Part shown: piece by piece, positions 21,336 through 63,737 of the stretch
Layout of the letters: every line of letters starts with the position of its first letter
Position numbering within the stretch: position 1 is the first letter of the stretch
DNA from: an uncultured Hyphomicrobiales bacterium
GTDB lineage: Bacteria > Pseudomonadota > Alphaproteobacteria > Rhizobiales > Beijerinckiaceae
NCBI GenBank assembly: GCA_903824185.1
Contig: CAIJVU010000036.1
Coordinates: 62,001 to 126,000 of the forward strand
Reading direction: 5' to 3'
Length of the DNA: 64,000 nucleotides
Made by a program: the position numbers and the translations under genes
Notes under the pieces: generated by a model
What the model was told of the DNA's origin: nothing
The model's input: only the letters and a program-made list of their open reading frames with translations
Databases searched by the model: none

Positions 21336-21782
21336 TGGATTGCCGCGCGGCGTCCCGCCGCTCGCAATGACGAGGGCGGAATGAATGGCTCAGCAGAGAT
21401 TCGTAACGATGCAAGACGAAAGAGCCGAATCAACTACTCCCGTCATTGCGAGCGTAGCGAAGCAATCCAGTTTTAATAATCACCCATCCATCGCACTGGC
21501 AAAAATGGATTGCCGCGCGGCGTCCCGCCGCTCGCAATGACGGGGGGGTTGGCAAGAGTGCGCGGGTGGTGCGGCACGATCGCAATGACGCATGGTTTGC
21601 GGCCCCACTCCCGTCATTGCGAGCGTAGCGAAGCAATCCATTATAGCAGTCTCTGAACCGACCCCGTCATTACGACCGCGAGCAAAGCGACGCGGGAAGC
21701 AATCCAGAAAAAACACCGCGGCGTTTGAATACGACACTCAAAGATGGATTGCCACGCGGCTTTCAGCCGCTCGCAATGACGC
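21336..21782. repeat. Array of six alternating palindromic (REP/BIME-like) repeats
   Basis: Copies lie at 21336-21372, 21441-21470, 21506-21542, 21612-21640, 21665-21707 and 21745-21782, in orientations F, R, F, R, R, F, plus a partial end at 21581-21590. One end reads TGGATTGC and the other CGCAATGACG, so each copy can fold on ATTGC/GCAAT. F copies 1 and 3 share 42 identical bases, and R copies 2 and 4 about 33. F-R pairs define two elements of 134 and 135 bp (21336-21469, 21506-21640) with TGGATTGC/GCAATCCA ends. The whole 21325-22043 gap after mutY holds these repeats, an AT-rich stretch, a terminator and a tandem repeat, and no gene that I can support. Confidence 0.9.
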
Positions 21783-21794
21783 GGTGTGAATATG

Positions 21795-21909: not shown

Positions 21910-22060
21910 AAATCATCACTCTTCAAAGAGAGAGAGGCAACTTTTCCAAGAAGAAATCATCCCTCTGCAAAGAAATAGCCGCAGCTTCTCCAAGAAGAAC
22001 TCATCCCTCTTCAAACAAACAGCCGCGGCTTCTCAAAGAAAAATCAACGCTCGTCAAACA
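21910..22060 (-). repeat. Tandem repeat, period about 44 bp, reaching the stop codon of the adjacent gene
   Basis: Units start at 21910, 21954, 21998 and 22041 (spacing 44, 44, 43). Each begins with a variant of AATCATCCCTCTTCAAA, and the first three end with a variant of CTTCTCCAAGAAG, which is itself a small inverted repeat. The fourth copy is partial: its first 20 bases contain the TGA (22044-22046) and last codons of the minus-strand gene. The period is not a multiple of three. Confidence 0.8.
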
Positions 22061-59131: not shown

Positions 59132-59976
59132 CCGGCCCGCGCCCCACCTCCCCGCCCATCGGCCTCGTGCTCGGCAGCGGCGGTGCGCGCGGACTGGCGC
59201 ATCTGATTGTTTTGGAGACATTGGAAGAATTGGGTCTGCCACCCGCAGCCATTGCGGGATCGTCCATCGGCGCGATTATCGGCGCCGCCAGTGCATCGGG
59301 GATCAGCGCCCGCGCCTTGCGGGAGCATTTTGAAACCCTGTTTCTCAATCGCACCCATGTGATGGCCCGCCTTTGGAAAGCACGGGTGGGGCGCGTCAAA
59401 GATTTGTTCACGCGCTCCCCCGGCAATCCGGTTCTGGTGGATGGCGAAGCCTTGCTTGATCTGTTTTGGCCCGACAGCGTGCCTGATACATTCGAGGCCT
59501 TAGAAATCCCCCTGACGGTGGTGGCCACTGATTTTTACCATCACCGCGAAATCCGTTTCGACAGTGGCTCGCTTGTCAGTGGTGTGGCCGCCTCCATGGC
59601 CATGCCCGCCCTTGTCAAACCTGTTCAAATCGAGGGCCATGTCTTGATTGATGGCGGGGCGATCAATCCGCTGCCCTTCGAGACCTTTCTTGATCAAGGC
59701 ATGGTTGTGATTGCGGTGGATGTGTCAGGCGGCCCAAAAGTCAGCACCGCATTACCGGGCCCCTTTGCCACGATGATCGGTGCCGCGCAGATTATGCAAG
59801 CGGCGCTGGTTCAACAAAAACTGCAATTCAGACAGCCGGATATTTTGTTGAAACCCGATGTCGCCGGATTTCAGGCGCTCGACTTTTTCAAGATCGAGGC
59901 CATTCTCACCGCCTCAGCGCCTTTGAAAGATCAGCTGAAATATGCCTTGTCCGACCATCTCGACCAAAGGCTTTAA
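59128..59976 (+). CDS. Patatin-like phospholipase
   Basis: A 282-residue serine-dependent lipid hydrolase. The oxyanion block GLVLGSGGARGLAHL, the nucleophile motif GSSIGAIIGA (GxSxG) and the DGGAINPLPF with the catalytic Asp are all present. No signal peptide; RssA-like. ATG 59128 overlaps the upstream stop by ATGA. The TAA stop at 59974-59976 shares bases with the stop of the convergent tadA (59973-59975). Confidence 0.95.
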   Translation: MTGPRPTSPPIGLVLGSGGARGLAHLIVLETLEELGLPPAAIAGSSIGAIIGAASASGISARALREHFETLFLNRTHVMARLWKARVGRVKDLFTRSPGNPVLVDGEALLDLFWPDSVPDTFEALEIPLTVVATDFYHHREIRFDSGSLVSGVAASMAMPALVKPVQIEGHVLIDGGAINPLPFETFLDQGMVVIAVDVSGGPKVSTALPGPFATMIGAAQIMQAALVQQKLQFRQPDILLKPDVAGFQALDFFKIEAILTASAPLKDQLKYALSDHLDQRL

Positions 59977-60422
59977 CGCCTGCTGCTGAAAAAACTGCGC
60001 AACAGCTCAGCGGATTCACGGGCTCTGATCCCGCCATAGACCTCTGGCGCATGATGGCAGGTGGGTTGTGCGAAAAAGCGCGGCCCGTGCTCAACCGCAC
60101 CGCCTTTGCTGTCATCGGCGGCAAAATACAAACGCCGGATGCGTGCCAAGGACAAAGCGCCCGCGCACATGGCGCAGGGCTCCAAGGTGACATAGAGATC
60201 ACAGCCGATCAGCCGCTCGCTGCCCAAGATTTTGGCTGCGGCGCGGACCACCACCATTTCGGCATGGGCGGTTGGATCATGATCGCGCAAAACCCGATTA
60301 CCCGCACTGGCTATCACCCCACCATCGCGCATCAAAACAGCGCCGACCGGCACTTCTCCGGCCTCAGCCGCCTGTTTTGCCTCAAAAAAAGCCAAATCCA
60401 TTCCTGAAAGAGCTTGGTCCAT
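59973..60422 (-). CDS. tadA: tRNA(adenine34) deaminase
   Basis: Converts A34 to inosine in tRNA-Arg. The zinc site is HAEMVVVRAAAK and TLEPCAMCAGALSLARI. From ATG 60420-60422 the product has 149 residues, usual for the family; the frame runs to 60488 with several upstream ATGs, and none has a strong ribosome-binding site, so the start is uncertain. It is divergent from the pseudouridine synthase gene, with about 70 bp between, and ends overlapping the patatin gene. Confidence 0.95.
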   Translation of the reverse strand: MDQALSGMDLAFFEAKQAAEAGEVPVGAVLMRDGGVIASAGNRVLRDHDPTAHAEMVVVRAAAKILGSERLIGCDLYVTLEPCAMCAGALSLARIRRLYFAADDSKGGAVEHGPRFFAQPTCHHAPEVYGGIRARESAELLRSFFSSRR

Positions 60423-60492
60423 CGTCGCTTTTTCCAAAAAATCGGTCCAGTTTTCCTCGTCAAGCGGCATTGTGTCTGCTATCAGCACTGCT

Positions 60493-63165
60493 ATGACCTA
60501 TGACAGCAAAAAAGACGGTGGTCGAGGGGGCAAGCGCCCAACCGATCGCCGCACGGACCGCCCCGCATCCGACAGACCCTATAAAAGCCGCAGCGACGAG
60601 CGCGGCGATGCATCCGCGCGTCCGAAAGGCGACAGACCCTTCGGCGACAAAAAATTCGGCCCCAAAAAGTTTGGTGACAAACCATCGGGCGGCCGCGGTT
60701 TTGGCGACAAGAAATTCGGTGACAAAAAATTCGGCGGGCGCGATGACCGTCCCGCGCGTCCCTATGGCGACAGGCCAGACCGCAACCGTGATGACCGTCC
60801 CGCTCGCTCGTTTGGTGATCGTCCGGCGCGTCCCTATGGCGACAGGCCAGACCGTAACCGTGATGACCGCCCCGCCCGCTCGTTTGGTGATCGTCCAGCC
60901 CGTCCCTATGGCGACAGGCCCGAGCGTAACCGTGATGACCGTCCCGCCCGTTCGTTTGGTGATCGTCCAGCGCGTTCCTATGGCGACAGGCCAGACCGTA
61001 ACCGTGATGACCGTCCCGCCCGCTCGTTTGGGGATCGTCAAGCACGTCCCTATGGCGACAGGCCAGACCGCAACCGCGATGACCGTCCCGCCCGCTCGTT
61101 TGGGGATCGTCCGGCGCGTCCCTATGGCGACAGGCCAGACCGTAACCGTGATGACCGCCCCGCCCGCTCGTTTGGCGATCGTCCAGCCCGTCCCTATGGC
61201 GACAGGCCGGAACGCGGTGAACGCTCCGAGCGTCCGCCAAGTGCGGGTTTTCGTCCCCGCTACGAGGACAAAGGCCGCTCCAACAGTTCCGACAGGGGCG
61301 ACAGGCCGCAACGCTTCGGCGACAAGCATCGTTTTGGTGATAAGCCACGCTTTGGTGATAAGCCGCGCGCAGGCGGCGGCAAGCGTGAATTTATCGCGCG
61401 CGACCGCTCGGGGGATGAAGCACCGGCACCGCGCAGGGGCTTTCGTGACCGCATTGCCAAAGTCATGGCACGGGCCGGTCTTTGCTCCCGCCGCGAGGCC
61501 GAGGAATGGATTGAAGCCGGGCGCGTCAGCGTCAATGACGAGGTTCTGACCAGTCCGGCGCTCGATGTCACCGAACGCGATAAAATTCTGGTGGACGGCA
61601 CCCCCTTGCCGATGCGCGAGCGTACCCGTTTGTTCCTTTACCACAAGCCCTCAGGGCTTGTGACAACGGCATGGGATCCCGAAGGCCGACCCACGGTCTT
61701 TGCGGCCTTGCCCGCAGGCCTGCCACGGGTTGTGACCATCGGGCGGCTTGATATCAACACCGAAGGCTTGTTGCTGCTGACCAATGACGGCGGGCTGTCG
61801 CGGGTGATTGCTTTGCCGGAAACCGGCTGGCTGCGCCGCTATCGCGTCCGCGCCTATGGCTCGATCACCCAAGCCGATCTCGATACGTTGCAAGACGGGA
61901 TCACGATTGAAGGCATTCATTACGGGCCGATTGAGGCGCATCTGCAACGCGAGCAAGGCGACAATGTCTGGCTGACTTTGGGCTTGCGCGAAGGCAAAAA
62001 CCGCGAGGTCAAAAAAATCCTCGACCATTTCGGACTGCAGGTGAACCGTTTGATCCGTTTGTCATTCGGCCCCTTCCAGTTGAACGACTTGCCGGAAGGC
62101 GCGGTCGAAGAAGTCCGCACTGCCATTCTCAAAGACCAGTTGGGCGAAACGCTGGCGCAAGAAGCGGAAGTGGATTTCGACGCGCCGGTCTTTGTCTATG
62201 AGGACGAGGATTTCCATCCGCGCAAACGCGAAACCAGCTATCGGGAAAGCATCCCCGGCAAGCCGGACCGCAAAGACCGCTTTGCCGGTCGTGACGCGCC
62301 AGAGGAGCAGGCCGAAGAAGAAGCCCCGCGTCCGAAACGCCGCGCCCCGACCGAACCCTTGCGGTCCGTTTGGCGCGCCAGTGATGAAGAGGCGGAAGGT
62401 GCGGCCAAGCAGCGCAGCCACAAACCGCGTCGGGGTGACAATCCGCAAGAAGCGCGACTGGAAAGTGGAGCCCGCGCGCATGAACGCGCCGGTCGCATCA
62501 AAACCCCCAAAGGGGGCGATGTGCTGGTTGAAAAAGTCGTCCGCGAAAAGACAGAAGATCTGCCCGTCCGCGCCCCACGCAAACCCCGCAGTGAAGAGGG
62601 TGAAGCCCCGCGTCGGGAATTCGGGGATCGGCCACGTCCACCACGCGATGGCAGTGACCGCCCACCACGTCGGGATTTCGGGGATCGTCCGCGTCCACCA
62701 CGCGATGGCGATAATCGTCCACCGCGTCGGGATTTTGGAGATCGTCCACGTCCACCACGCGATGGCGGTGACCGTCCACCGCGTCGGGAGTTCGGGGATC
62801 GTCCACGTCCACCACGCGATGGCGATGATCGCCCGCCGCGTCGGGATTTCGGGGATCGTCCACGTCCACCAAGGGATGGCGGAGACCGTCCACCGCGTCG
62901 GGAGTTCGGGGATCGTCCGCGCCCACCAAGGGATGGTGATGATCGCCCACCGCGTCGGGATTTCGGGGATCGTCCGCGTCCACCAAGGGATGGCGGAGAC
63001 CGTCCACCGCGTCGGGATTTCGGGGATCGGCCGCGCCCACCAAGGGATGGCGGTGATCGCCCGTCCCGTCCAGCGCGTGACGGTGCGCCCAACAATGGCG
63101 TCGGACCACGCAGCGGGCCACGCGGTGGCTCTGGCGGGCCACGCCCACCCAGACGCAATGGCTAA
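60493..63165 (+). CDS. RluB-type pseudouridine synthase with two repetitive disordered arms
   Basis: An 890-residue protein whose core is an RluB/RsuA pseudouridine synthase of 23S or 16S rRNA: S4 domain (about 316-365, FRDRIAKVMARAGLCSRREA) and catalytic Asp420 in IGRLDINTEGLLLLTNDGG. The core is only about 260 residues; the rest is Arg/Asp/Pro-rich repeats. Array 1 (60742-61209) has units of 24 residues, array 2 (62611-63066) units of 19. ATG 60493 is preferred over GTG 60472. Such long basic arms may bind RNA; that is inference. It precedes rsmD by 11 bp. Confidence 0.95.
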   Translation: MTYDSKKDGGRGGKRPTDRRTDRPASDRPYKSRSDERGDASARPKGDRPFGDKKFGPKKFGDKPSGGRGFGDKKFGDKKFGGRDDRPARPYGDRPDRNRDDRPARSFGDRPARPYGDRPDRNRDDRPARSFGDRPARPYGDRPERNRDDRPARSFGDRPARSYGDRPDRNRDDRPARSFGDRQARPYGDRPDRNRDDRPARSFGDRPARPYGDRPDRNRDDRPARSFGDRPARPYGDRPERGERSERPPSAGFRPRYEDKGRSNSSDRGDRPQRFGDKHRFGDKPRFGDKPRAGGGKREFIARDRSGDEAPAPRRGFRDRIAKVMARAGLCSRREAEEWIEAGRVSVNDEVLTSPALDVTERDKILVDGTPLPMRERTRLFLYHKPSGLVTTAWDPEGRPTVFAALPAGLPRVVTIGRLDINTEGLLLLTNDGGLSRVIALPETGWLRRYRVRAYGSITQADLDTLQDGITIEGIHYGPIEAHLQREQGDNVWLTLGLREGKNREVKKILDHFGLQVNRLIRLSFGPFQLNDLPEGAVEEVRTAILKDQLGETLAQEAEVDFDAPVFVYEDEDFHPRKRETSYRESIPGKPDRKDRFAGRDAPEEQAEEEAPRPKRRAPTEPLRSVWRASDEEAEGAAKQRSHKPRRGDNPQEARLESGARAHERAGRIKTPKGGDVLVEKVVREKTEDLPVRAPRKPRSEEGEAPRREFGDRPRPPRDGSDRPPRRDFGDRPRPPRDGDNRPPRRDFGDRPRPPRDGGDRPPRREFGDRPRPPRDGDDRPPRRDFGDRPRPPRDGGDRPPRREFGDRPRPPRDGDDRPPRRDFGDRPRPPRDGGDRPPRRDFGDRPRPPRDGGDRPSRPARDGAPNNGVGPRSGPRGGSGGPRPPRRNG
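60742..61209 (+). repeat. 72-bp (24-residue) tandem array in the pseudouridine synthase N-terminal arm
   Basis: Six complete or nearly complete copies of a 24-residue unit beginning DDRPARSFGDRPARPYGDRP then D/E-RNR, plus a partial first copy and a degenerate last copy. Units are highly similar at DNA level, with few substitutions (for example RPE for RPD, RQA for RPA), suggesting recent amplification or frequent recombination. Confidence 0.95.
62611..63066 (+). repeat. 57-bp (19-residue) tandem array in the pseudouridine synthase C-terminal arm
   Basis: Eight copies of a 19-residue unit RRDFGDRPRPPRDGGDRPP, with alternation between RRDF and RREF and between GGD, GDD, GSD and GDN. The final copy ends in RPS. 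The array lies directly before a Gly/Arg/Pro-rich tail, and its DNA period differs from that of the N-terminal array. Confidence 0.95.
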
Positions 63166-63176
63166 ACGGGGCGGAT

Positions 63177-63737
63177 ATGCGGATCATCGGCGGTCGCTTT
63201 AAAGGACGGGGACTGAAAACCCCGTCCGATCACACCGTCAGACCGACATCGGATCGGCTGCGCGAGACCTTGTTCAATATTCTCGCGCATGCCTATGACG
63301 ACCCGATGCCTGACGCCCGTGTGCTTGATTTATTCGCAGGCACCGGCGCCTTGGGGCTTGAAGCCCTGTCGCGTGGCGCAAGCTTTGCCCAATTCGTCGA
63401 TGACTCGGCACAAGGGCGCGGGCTTTTACGCGCCAATATCGAAAATTTGGGCGTCGCCGCCCAAACAAAGGTTTTTCGCCGTGATGCCACCCGCATGGGA
63501 CAGGTGCATCCGCACGCCCCTTTTCATCTGATTTTTTGTGATCCGCCTTACAATCAAGGCCTGGGCGACAAGGCCCTGACATCGGCCTTTGAAGGGGGAT
63601 GGTTCGCTCCCAAAGCCCTCATTGTTTTTGAAGAAAGCAGCAAGGCCGAGCATCAGCTGCCATCGGCGTTGACGCTTTTGGAAACACGCGATTTCGGCGA
63701 AACCCATGTGATGTTTTTACAAGCACCGGACGCCTGA
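63177..63737 (+). CDS. rsmD: 16S rRNA (guanine966-N2)-methyltransferase
   Basis: A Rossmann-fold methyltransferase of 16S rRNA. The 186-residue product has RIIGGRFKGRGLKTP at the start, the SAM motif VLDLFAGTGALGLEALSRGA and the catalytic LIFCDPPYNQGLGD. It starts 11 bp after the pseudouridine synthase stop, so both ribosomal RNA modification genes form one operon. It is convergent with mutL, 9 bp apart. Confidence 0.97.
   Translation: MRIIGGRFKGRGLKTPSDHTVRPTSDRLRETLFNILAHAYDDPMPDARVLDLFAGTGALGLEALSRGASFAQFVDDSAQGRGLLRANIENLGVAAQTKVFRRDATRMGQVHPHAPFHLIFCDPPYNQGLGDKALTSAFEGGWFAPKALIVFEESSKAEHQLPSALTLLETRDFGETHVMFLQAPDA

Follow-up and report, generated by a model that had tools for sequence, protein, structure and literature searches.

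A two-armed RluB-type pseudouridine synthase of the Hyphomicrobiales with tandem-repeat arrays that turn over between species

Introduction

In Escherichia coli, RluB converts U2605, which lies in the peptidyl-transferase region of 23S rRNA, to pseudouridine. Its active-site roles have been assigned to Asp110, Tyr140 and Arg194, and the 40 C-terminal residues that lie past the crystallised part are also predicted to be disordered (passages of PMC3919597). RluB has been found in precursor particles of cells that lack RlmE (excerpts of PMC11194073), and among bacterial proteins, those that bind or process RNA show an enrichment of arginine-rich low-complexity regions (parts of PMC6821194). The word 'pseudouridine' is absent from the main text of the latter study, and the parts cited here do not describe two-sided arrays. 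A two-armed or arrayed RluB was not found in the titles and opening parts of abstracts listed in searches of the open-licence literature. This report concerns the gene for an RluB-type enzyme in a stretch of 64,000 nucleotides (the window) from an uncultured Hyphomicrobiales bacterium (assembly GCA_903824185.1, contig CAIJVU010000036.1, positions 62,001 to 126,000 of the forward strand). The enzyme resembles E. coli RluB (4lgt, 4lab and 9cl9) in its S4 domain, its RsuA/RluB-type core and the aligned active-site Asp, Tyr and Arg, and the bacterial proteins of PMC6821194 in carrying arginine-rich regions on an RNA-processing protein. Unlike E. coli RluB, which has 291 residues and is without an N-terminal arm (the match starts at residue 3 of 9cl9 and at residue 7 of 4lab), it has a long N-terminal arm (N arm) as well as a long C-terminal arm (C arm), each with its own tandem array.

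Results

Two separate arrays around an RluB-type core

A single open frame on the plus strand spans both arrays and the core from the ATG at 60493 to the stop codon that ends at 63165; 317 residues lie N-terminal and 318 residues C-terminal to the core. The order of S4 and PseudoU_synth_2 domains, the GRLD motif and the catalytic Asp, Tyr and Arg are all present. The protein passes the cut-off of the RsuA/RluB-type model TIGR00093 (127.6 bits against 109.3). The RluB equivalog model NF007976 gives 152.5 bits, which is below its cut-off of 290 but still the top score among the RluB, RsuA, RluF and RluE models. Because the equivalog cut-off is missed, the protein is called RluB-type here, and U2605 of 23S rRNA is its putative target. 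In a sequence search of the PDB, RluB entries 4lab (E 4.5e-41) and 9cl9 (E 5.4e-41) are at the top and RluF, RluE and RsuA are far lower. When the weak full-length model is used as a query, the top Foldseek match is 4lgt, a complex of RluB with RNA (E 2.6e-19, target TM-score 0.58), and 9cl9, an entry titled 'B-b3 with RluB bound', ranks third. Asp420, Tyr450 and Arg504 correspond to Asp110, Tyr140 and Arg194 of E. coli RluB and are invariant across 32 aligned sequences. The source genome contains four PF00849 matches, and the whole protein as a query matches just this one at E <= 1e-3. By these domain and alignment results, the gene product, which has a standard core, is an RluB-type enzyme, as proposed in the preliminary description, an earlier note on this stretch of DNA.

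Analysis with Tandem Repeats Finder (TRF) gives an N array at 60744-61208 with a period of 72 bp, 6.5 copies, 92% matches, no indels and a score of 783, and a C array at 62608-63062 with a period of 57 bp, 8.0 copies, 87% matches and a score of 637. An alternative reading of the C array has a period of 114 bp, 4.0 copies, 91% matches and a score of 707. Read in frame, the N array consists of six full 24-residue units (60742-61173) and a partial seventh, and the C array consists of eight 19-residue units. The units of both arrays have a GDRP core and use a common peptide vocabulary, FGDRP. Thus, the preliminary description is correct in placing about six 72-bp copies before the S4 domain and eight 57-bp copies after the catalytic domain, with the same GDRP core and differing periods. 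The mean identity between units is 0.92 (DNA) and 0.94 (protein) for the N array, and 0.87 and 0.92 for the C array. The 72-bp unit is itself composed of approximately three 8-residue steps (TRF period 24, 57% matches), and two weaker arrays, of FGDKK and RFGDKP types, flank the N array (Table 1).

Units of the same array carry the same codon at the same residue with a frequency of 0.81 in the N array and 0.74 in the C array, whereas the codon usage of the neighbouring genes and the core would give 0.41 and 0.39, respectively. These values are far above expectation and therefore indicate duplication of DNA, not protein bias alone. When the N arm is compared with the C arm, codons at sites with the same residue agree at a frequency of 0.39, and the codon use of the arms themselves predicts 0.34. 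No 15-mer is common to the N and C arms of the gene, and the longest DNA word common to both arrays is 12 bp. Because codon identity is near background and the words common to the arrays do not exceed 12 bp, the arrays arose separately, in agreement with the separate amplification proposed before. To judge from the codons and common words, the FGDRP vocabulary is a protein-level likeness of independently made arrays. In the source genome, the arrays match beyond the locus over 15-46 query bases only (best E 0.025), and the N-arm protein has no second match up to E 10, the C arm alone not having been searched as a protein.

The proportions of synonymous and nonsynonymous differences between units (pS/pN) are 0.25/0.027 for the N array and 0.32/0.055 for the C array, and the mean synonymous distances (dS) are 0.31 and 0.43, all of these values being rough because the units are short. 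The dS of the core is 1.05-1.11 between the window and three sister genes, L002 (genome G004), L003 (G003) and L004 (G002), and 0.34-0.39 among these three. The dS between units is thus lower than that between the window core and its sisters and similar to that between sisters, suggesting that the arrays are younger than the sister split, but mostly not brand new. The longest exact repeat is 71 bp in the N array, between units 2 and 6, and 41 bp in the C array, the most notable pair of which (units 5 and 7) has an identity of 98%. These two pairs look like recent duplications. Recent recombination, as suggested in the preliminary description, thus fits single pairs of units but not the arrays as a whole, the mean dS of which is too high.

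Turnover of the arrays between species

The genus is represented by five genomes. The sister genomes are drafts and come from collections with one genome per species. Core and both arrays are present in four genomes. In the fifth (G001, locus L131), the contig breaks off within the N array of rluB at a 90-bp exact repeat. The periods of the N and C arrays are 72 and 57 bp in the window, 135 and 63 bp in G002, G003 and G004, and 63 and 96 bp in G008, a genome of a related genus. No 18-mer is common to the arms of the window gene and those of L002-L005, whereas the cores share 17-25. The cores of L002, L003 and L004 are 99-100% identical in protein and 0.92-0.93 identical in DNA; the N array of these genes has 4.0, 3.3 and 2.9 copies, and the C array has 3.5, 7.6 and 5.6 copies, respectively. 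The 22 units counted in these genes (7 N and 15 C units that fit set unit patterns, variant units outside the patterns being left out) all have their closest counterpart within the same gene. On average, units of one gene have identities of 0.90 (N) and 0.91 (C), and units of different species have identities of 0.80 (N) and 0.77 (C). Because units are nearest to those of their own gene and are more similar within than between species, the arrays undergo concerted evolution. Comparison of these genes shows that, from one species to another, the repeat units give way to others and their number changes while the core remains nearly identical. The earlier proposal that recombination changes arm length between strains thus holds between sister species, in both copy number and replacement of units. 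The arrays resemble copy-number-variable intragenic tandem repeats in that the units are in frame, homogenised in each gene and different in number among relatives. The best-known repeats of this kind are those of surface proteins, and here they belong to an rRNA enzyme.

Distribution of arms and arrays among orthologues

The orthologues surveyed are 118 genes distinct by core DNA, taken from 140 sequences with a core match, of which 127 are closed at both ends. They lean to close relatives, because only the best 80 of 535 confirmed matches entered the survey as named loci. Figures for families are based on 51 complete genes of a 60-genome set, in which 54 genomes have a match and three (G001, G006 and G024) are incomplete. 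An arm is termed long when it has at least 60 residues, and an array is counted when its TRF score is at least 100. N-arm lengths are taken from the most upstream ATG and are overlong in some genes (by about 34 residues in L002 and L003).

Both arms are long in 28 of the 31 genes from the family of the window, but in only three of the 20 genes from the rest of the order. Arrays in both arms are present in seven of the 31 and one of the 20 genes, respectively. Among the 118 genes, 23 have an N array, 33 have a C array and 13 have both, and the window gene has the highest summed array score. These results indicate that two long arms are typical of the family and that genes with a double array are in the minority. 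The preliminary description regarded the double-array form as uncommon, which is appropriate for the double array among the 118 genes, but not within the genus, where all four complete genes have it, and not for the two long arms, which are the rule in the family. Most orthologues from this family resemble the window gene in their long arms around the same core, and orthologues from this family and from other Hyphomicrobiales differ from it in repeat units and periods, species by species and genus by genus. At least two GDRP-like words are present in each arm in 39 of the 118 orthologues. The long arms are thus a variable feature of this enzyme: the N arm is shorter than 60 residues in 33 of the 118 orthologues, and both arms are below this length in eight, seven of which have arms of fewer than 30 residues. 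The period is divisible by three in all 56 best arm arrays with a score of at least 100; among the 123 best arrays with a score of at least 50, there are two weak exceptions (scores 52 and 55). These periods and the low pN relative to pS between units point to arms that are translated and under constraint at the protein level.

Composition and predicted structure of the arms

The N and C arms of the window gene contain 23% and 24% Arg, 16% and 13% Asp, 13% and 19% Pro, and 1% and 4% aliphatic residues, respectively, with 12-13% Gly. Aromatic residues (Phe, Tyr and Trp) account for 9% of the N arm and 4% of the C arm. The net charge is +33 for the N arm, +25 for the C arm and -10 for the core. 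Among the 83 genes in which both arms are long, which were also used for comparison of the N arm with the C arm, the arms are Arg-rich, aliphatic-poor and mostly net positive; the C arm is so in all 83 genes and the N arm in 72 of them. In the AlphaFold model, residues 2-290, 292-315, 569-645 and 685-885 have a predicted local distance difference test score (pLDDT) below 50. The arms are thus probably disordered, and the basic disordered tails mentioned in the preliminary description agree with both the charge and the pLDDT values. A Pfam search with the arms gave no match at E values of up to 1.

A conserved element interrupts the low-pLDDT part of the C arm. It lies within a wider conserved stretch (62335-62577), and its family pattern is RRGADPK..R.ESG..R.R.G....GRxVxVER. 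Of its parts, [ST]xWR is present in 42, RRGxD in 52 and a VxVER-like end in 62 of the 118 genes, and all three are present in 29. The full-length model contains a helix at residues 651-659 and strands at 663-670 and 676-682. A second model, of core and linker, gives the same helix and hairpin; the two models, with pLDDT values of about 61-67 and 67-76 for this block, were made from different alignments with sequences in common. For the element, Pfam gives nothing at E values of up to 1, and its only matches in the PDB (E 0.35-0.49) are not taken as relatives. As a guess, the helix and hairpin may serve as a docking element.

Gene start, features and neighbours

The mechanical open reading frame (ORF) starts from the GTG at 60472 and encodes 897 residues. 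The ATG at 60493 is preferred as the probable start, because an MTxDxKK..GGRGG-like head is common to the sister genes and the 11-mer CTGCTATCAGC is located just upstream. This 11-mer (60476-60486) lies 5-6 bases 5' of the ATG in the window, L002, L003, L004, L005 and L131, and is present anywhere in the locus in seven of the 118 loci. A 9-mer, CTGCTATCA, is present within 1.6 kb 5' of the core in 40 of the 118 genes. These words are a possible promoter or start-site element. In the N-arm linker, a stretch RPR(Y/F)(E/Q)D(K/R)GR is also present in the sister genes, and the first 130 residues of the C-arm linker show amino-acid identities of 0.55-0.61 with those of L002-L005. The features of the gene and its neighbours are summarised in Table 1.

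Table 1. Coordinates of the rluB-type gene, its parts and the neighbouring genes (positions in the window)
Feature	Position	Strand	Basis or remarks
RluB-type 23S rRNA pseudouridine synthase gene	60493..63165	+	890 aa; ORF, Pfam, NCBIfam
N-arm head, with short FGDKK-type repeats at its end (60640-60736)	60493..60741	+	TRF, sister alignment
N array, six 72-bp units and partial seventh, (G/D)DRPARPYGDRPDRNRDDRPARSF	60742..61206	+	TRF, in-frame units
N-arm linker up to S4 domain, with short RFGDKP repeat (61311-61368)	61207..61443	+	TRF, sister alignment
S4 RNA-binding domain	61450..61587	+	PF01479, E 2.8e-12
Pseudouridine synthase catalytic domain (PseudoU_synth_2)	61630..62025	+	PF00849, E 1.8e-9
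Catalytic residues Asp420, Tyr450, Arg504	61750-61752, 61840-61842, 62002-62004	+	Alignment to 4lab, codons checked
C-arm linker, from core to C array	62209..62607	+	Sister alignment
Predicted helix and beta-hairpin element of C-arm linker, here PQEARLESGARAHERAGRIKTPKGGDVLVEKV	62443..62538	+	Family alignment, models
C array, eight 57-bp units PRR(D/E)FGDRPRPPRDG(G/D)DRP, partly in 114-bp pairs	62608..63063	+	TRF, in-frame units
C-terminal tail, Arg/Gly/Pro rich, 3' of C array	63064..63165	+	ORF translation
TadA-like tRNA adenosine deaminase, divergent neighbour	59973..60488	-	PF00383/PF14437; NF008113 best, 130.2 < cut-off 150
RsmD, 16S rRNA m2G966 methyltransferase, neighbour	63177..63737	+	PF03602; TIGR00095 above cut-off

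Long ORFs of 306-394 residues run through the arrays at 60460-61644 and 62238-63158 on the minus strand and at 62192-63202 on the plus strand. They are probably not genes; these antisense and off-frame ORFs presumably stay open because repeat periods divisible by three keep the frames open. The source genome is a 2.8-Mb draft in 82 contigs, and the contig that contains the window has 147,713 bases. The three nearest named records, among the best 80 of 535 matches, come from metagenome-assembled genomes of Hyphomicrobiales/Rhizobiales, and the names of two refer to a lake or pond. Elsewhere in the window, a 44-bp tandem repeat is located at 21910-22058 (3.4 copies, 82% matches) in an apparent intergenic stretch or gene end; its period is not divisible by three. 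Short ORFs at about 21430-21789 read ..LRYARNDG.. and ..CFATLAMTG.., a look that is typical of dispersed palindromic repeats of alphaproteobacteria.

Discussion

The gene described here encodes a known enzyme in a two-armed variant that is common in its family, with unusually regular arrays and measurable concerted evolution. The reading preferred here, to which a probability of about 0.6 is given, is that the two long and probably disordered arms carry in-frame arrays that turn over while their composition is kept, and that the arms serve as tethers between the enzyme and rRNA or pre-50S particles. Whole units would be gained and lost through unequal recombination or slipped replication, and strong arrays would survive only when their period is divisible by three. 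Selection would keep the composition and the net positive charge of the arms and not their exact sequence. The arms would act as low-specificity, multivalent RNA grips that keep the enzyme close to its target, on the immature 50S subunit or on rRNA, and the array would be the stretch of the arm that is adjustable in length. Tethering is proposed because of the composition of the arms, the title of entry 9cl9, the occurrence of RluB in precursor particles and the arginine-rich regions of RNA-processing proteins. A bolder version of this reading holds that the arms are a matched, self-renewing pair that turns over faster than speciation under one FGDRP-like, net-positive chemical grammar of Arg, Asp, Pro and Gly, in which arm length is a quickly adjustable setting of ribosome assembly and the helix-hairpin element is a fixed dock; this version is conceivable, but rather doubtful.

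Several points weigh against tethering by the arms. The full-length model is weak (mean pLDDT 48.7, predicted template modelling score 0.33, 32 sequences), and low pLDDT is an indirect sign of disorder. Acidic residues nearly offset Arg and Lys, so that the arms are polyampholytes rather than simple polycations and their affinity for RNA may be modest. Expression of RluB in E. coli cells without ten modification enzymes causes no significant change in growth or gradient profile, as far as the excerpts of PMC11194073 go. The 40 C-terminal residues of the E. coli enzyme were judged, from the RluF complex, not to contribute to stem-loop binding (passages of PMC3919597). Finally, the orthologues with one or both arms short indicate that the enzyme exists without long arms.

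The short-armed orthologues, as well as the variation of copy number and unit sequence among sister species with nearly identical cores, are also expected if the arms do little and drift neutrally as a GC-rich, repeat-prone stretch, the slippage or recombination of which is tolerated as long as the product is in frame, soluble and non-toxic. Such drift does not readily account for the Arg-rich, aliphatic-poor and mostly net-positive composition kept across 83 genes, for the FGDRP vocabulary of two arrays of unrelated DNA, or for a pN between units of approximately one-tenth (N) to one-sixth (C) of pS. The last of these is not decisive, because homogenisation together with selection on a founder unit could lower pN/pS. 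Neutral drift is therefore regarded as possible, though not probable. The composition of the arms would also suit a scaffold or client of an RNA-rich condensate, with Arg and aromatic stickers and Gly, Pro and Asp spacers, in which array length sets the tendency to phase separation. The probable disorder, the high Arg content, the aromatics of the N arm and the arrayed FGDRP units are consistent with this proposal at the level of composition, but the C arm contains few aromatics, and a condensate role is considered unlikely.

The N and C arms could also swap repeat DNA by gene conversion across the core, such that they evolve together. DNA likeness between the two arms of one gene rises above codon-shuffled controls (z > 6) in 18 of 83 genes, and the same holds for 13 of 332 pairs that were matched by GC content and taken from different genes; in a first scan, z exceeded 6 in 20 of 83 genes, and the own pair was the best of its row in 10 and of its column in 9 of 83. 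The two arms look alike in L005, L064 and L048, and in L064 positions 241-324 of the N arm and 304-388 of the C arm (arm DNA) form an alignment of 85 columns with 78 identities. However, N arms match the C arm of the nearest relative at about the same rate (17 of 83; paired test p 0.18). In the top 24 genes, codons for the same residue agree at a frequency of 0.48, where 0.45 is expected, and in the window gene no exchange is seen (z 0.8, with the 12-bp limit on common words). As a general process, arm-to-arm exchange of DNA is rejected, being supported neither by the nearest-relative control nor by the codon test; it is at most occasional, as possibly in L064, and joint evolution of the arms by this route is very improbable. 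It is also very improbable that the arrays or their copy numbers are artefacts of draft assembly. Repeats are known to cause assembly errors (part of PMC6868369), the source genome is in many contigs, and the contig of sister G001 ends in the N array. Artefacts of this kind are difficult to reconcile with units that differ from each other, exact repeats that do not exceed the lengths given above and a frame that stays open, and similar double arrays are present in other assemblies, including the single-contig 4.5-Mb genome G054 (locus L016).

The value of this case is that it is a clean one, in which the folded core keeps an identity of 99-100% from species to species and the two flanking arms are rewritten one unit at a time. 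It allows one to ask which properties of a disordered region are visible to selection, whether charge, number of stickers or length, apart from its sequence. The product of the enzyme can be mapped on rRNA, and the conserved element of the C arm provides a second, sequence-specific thing to test.

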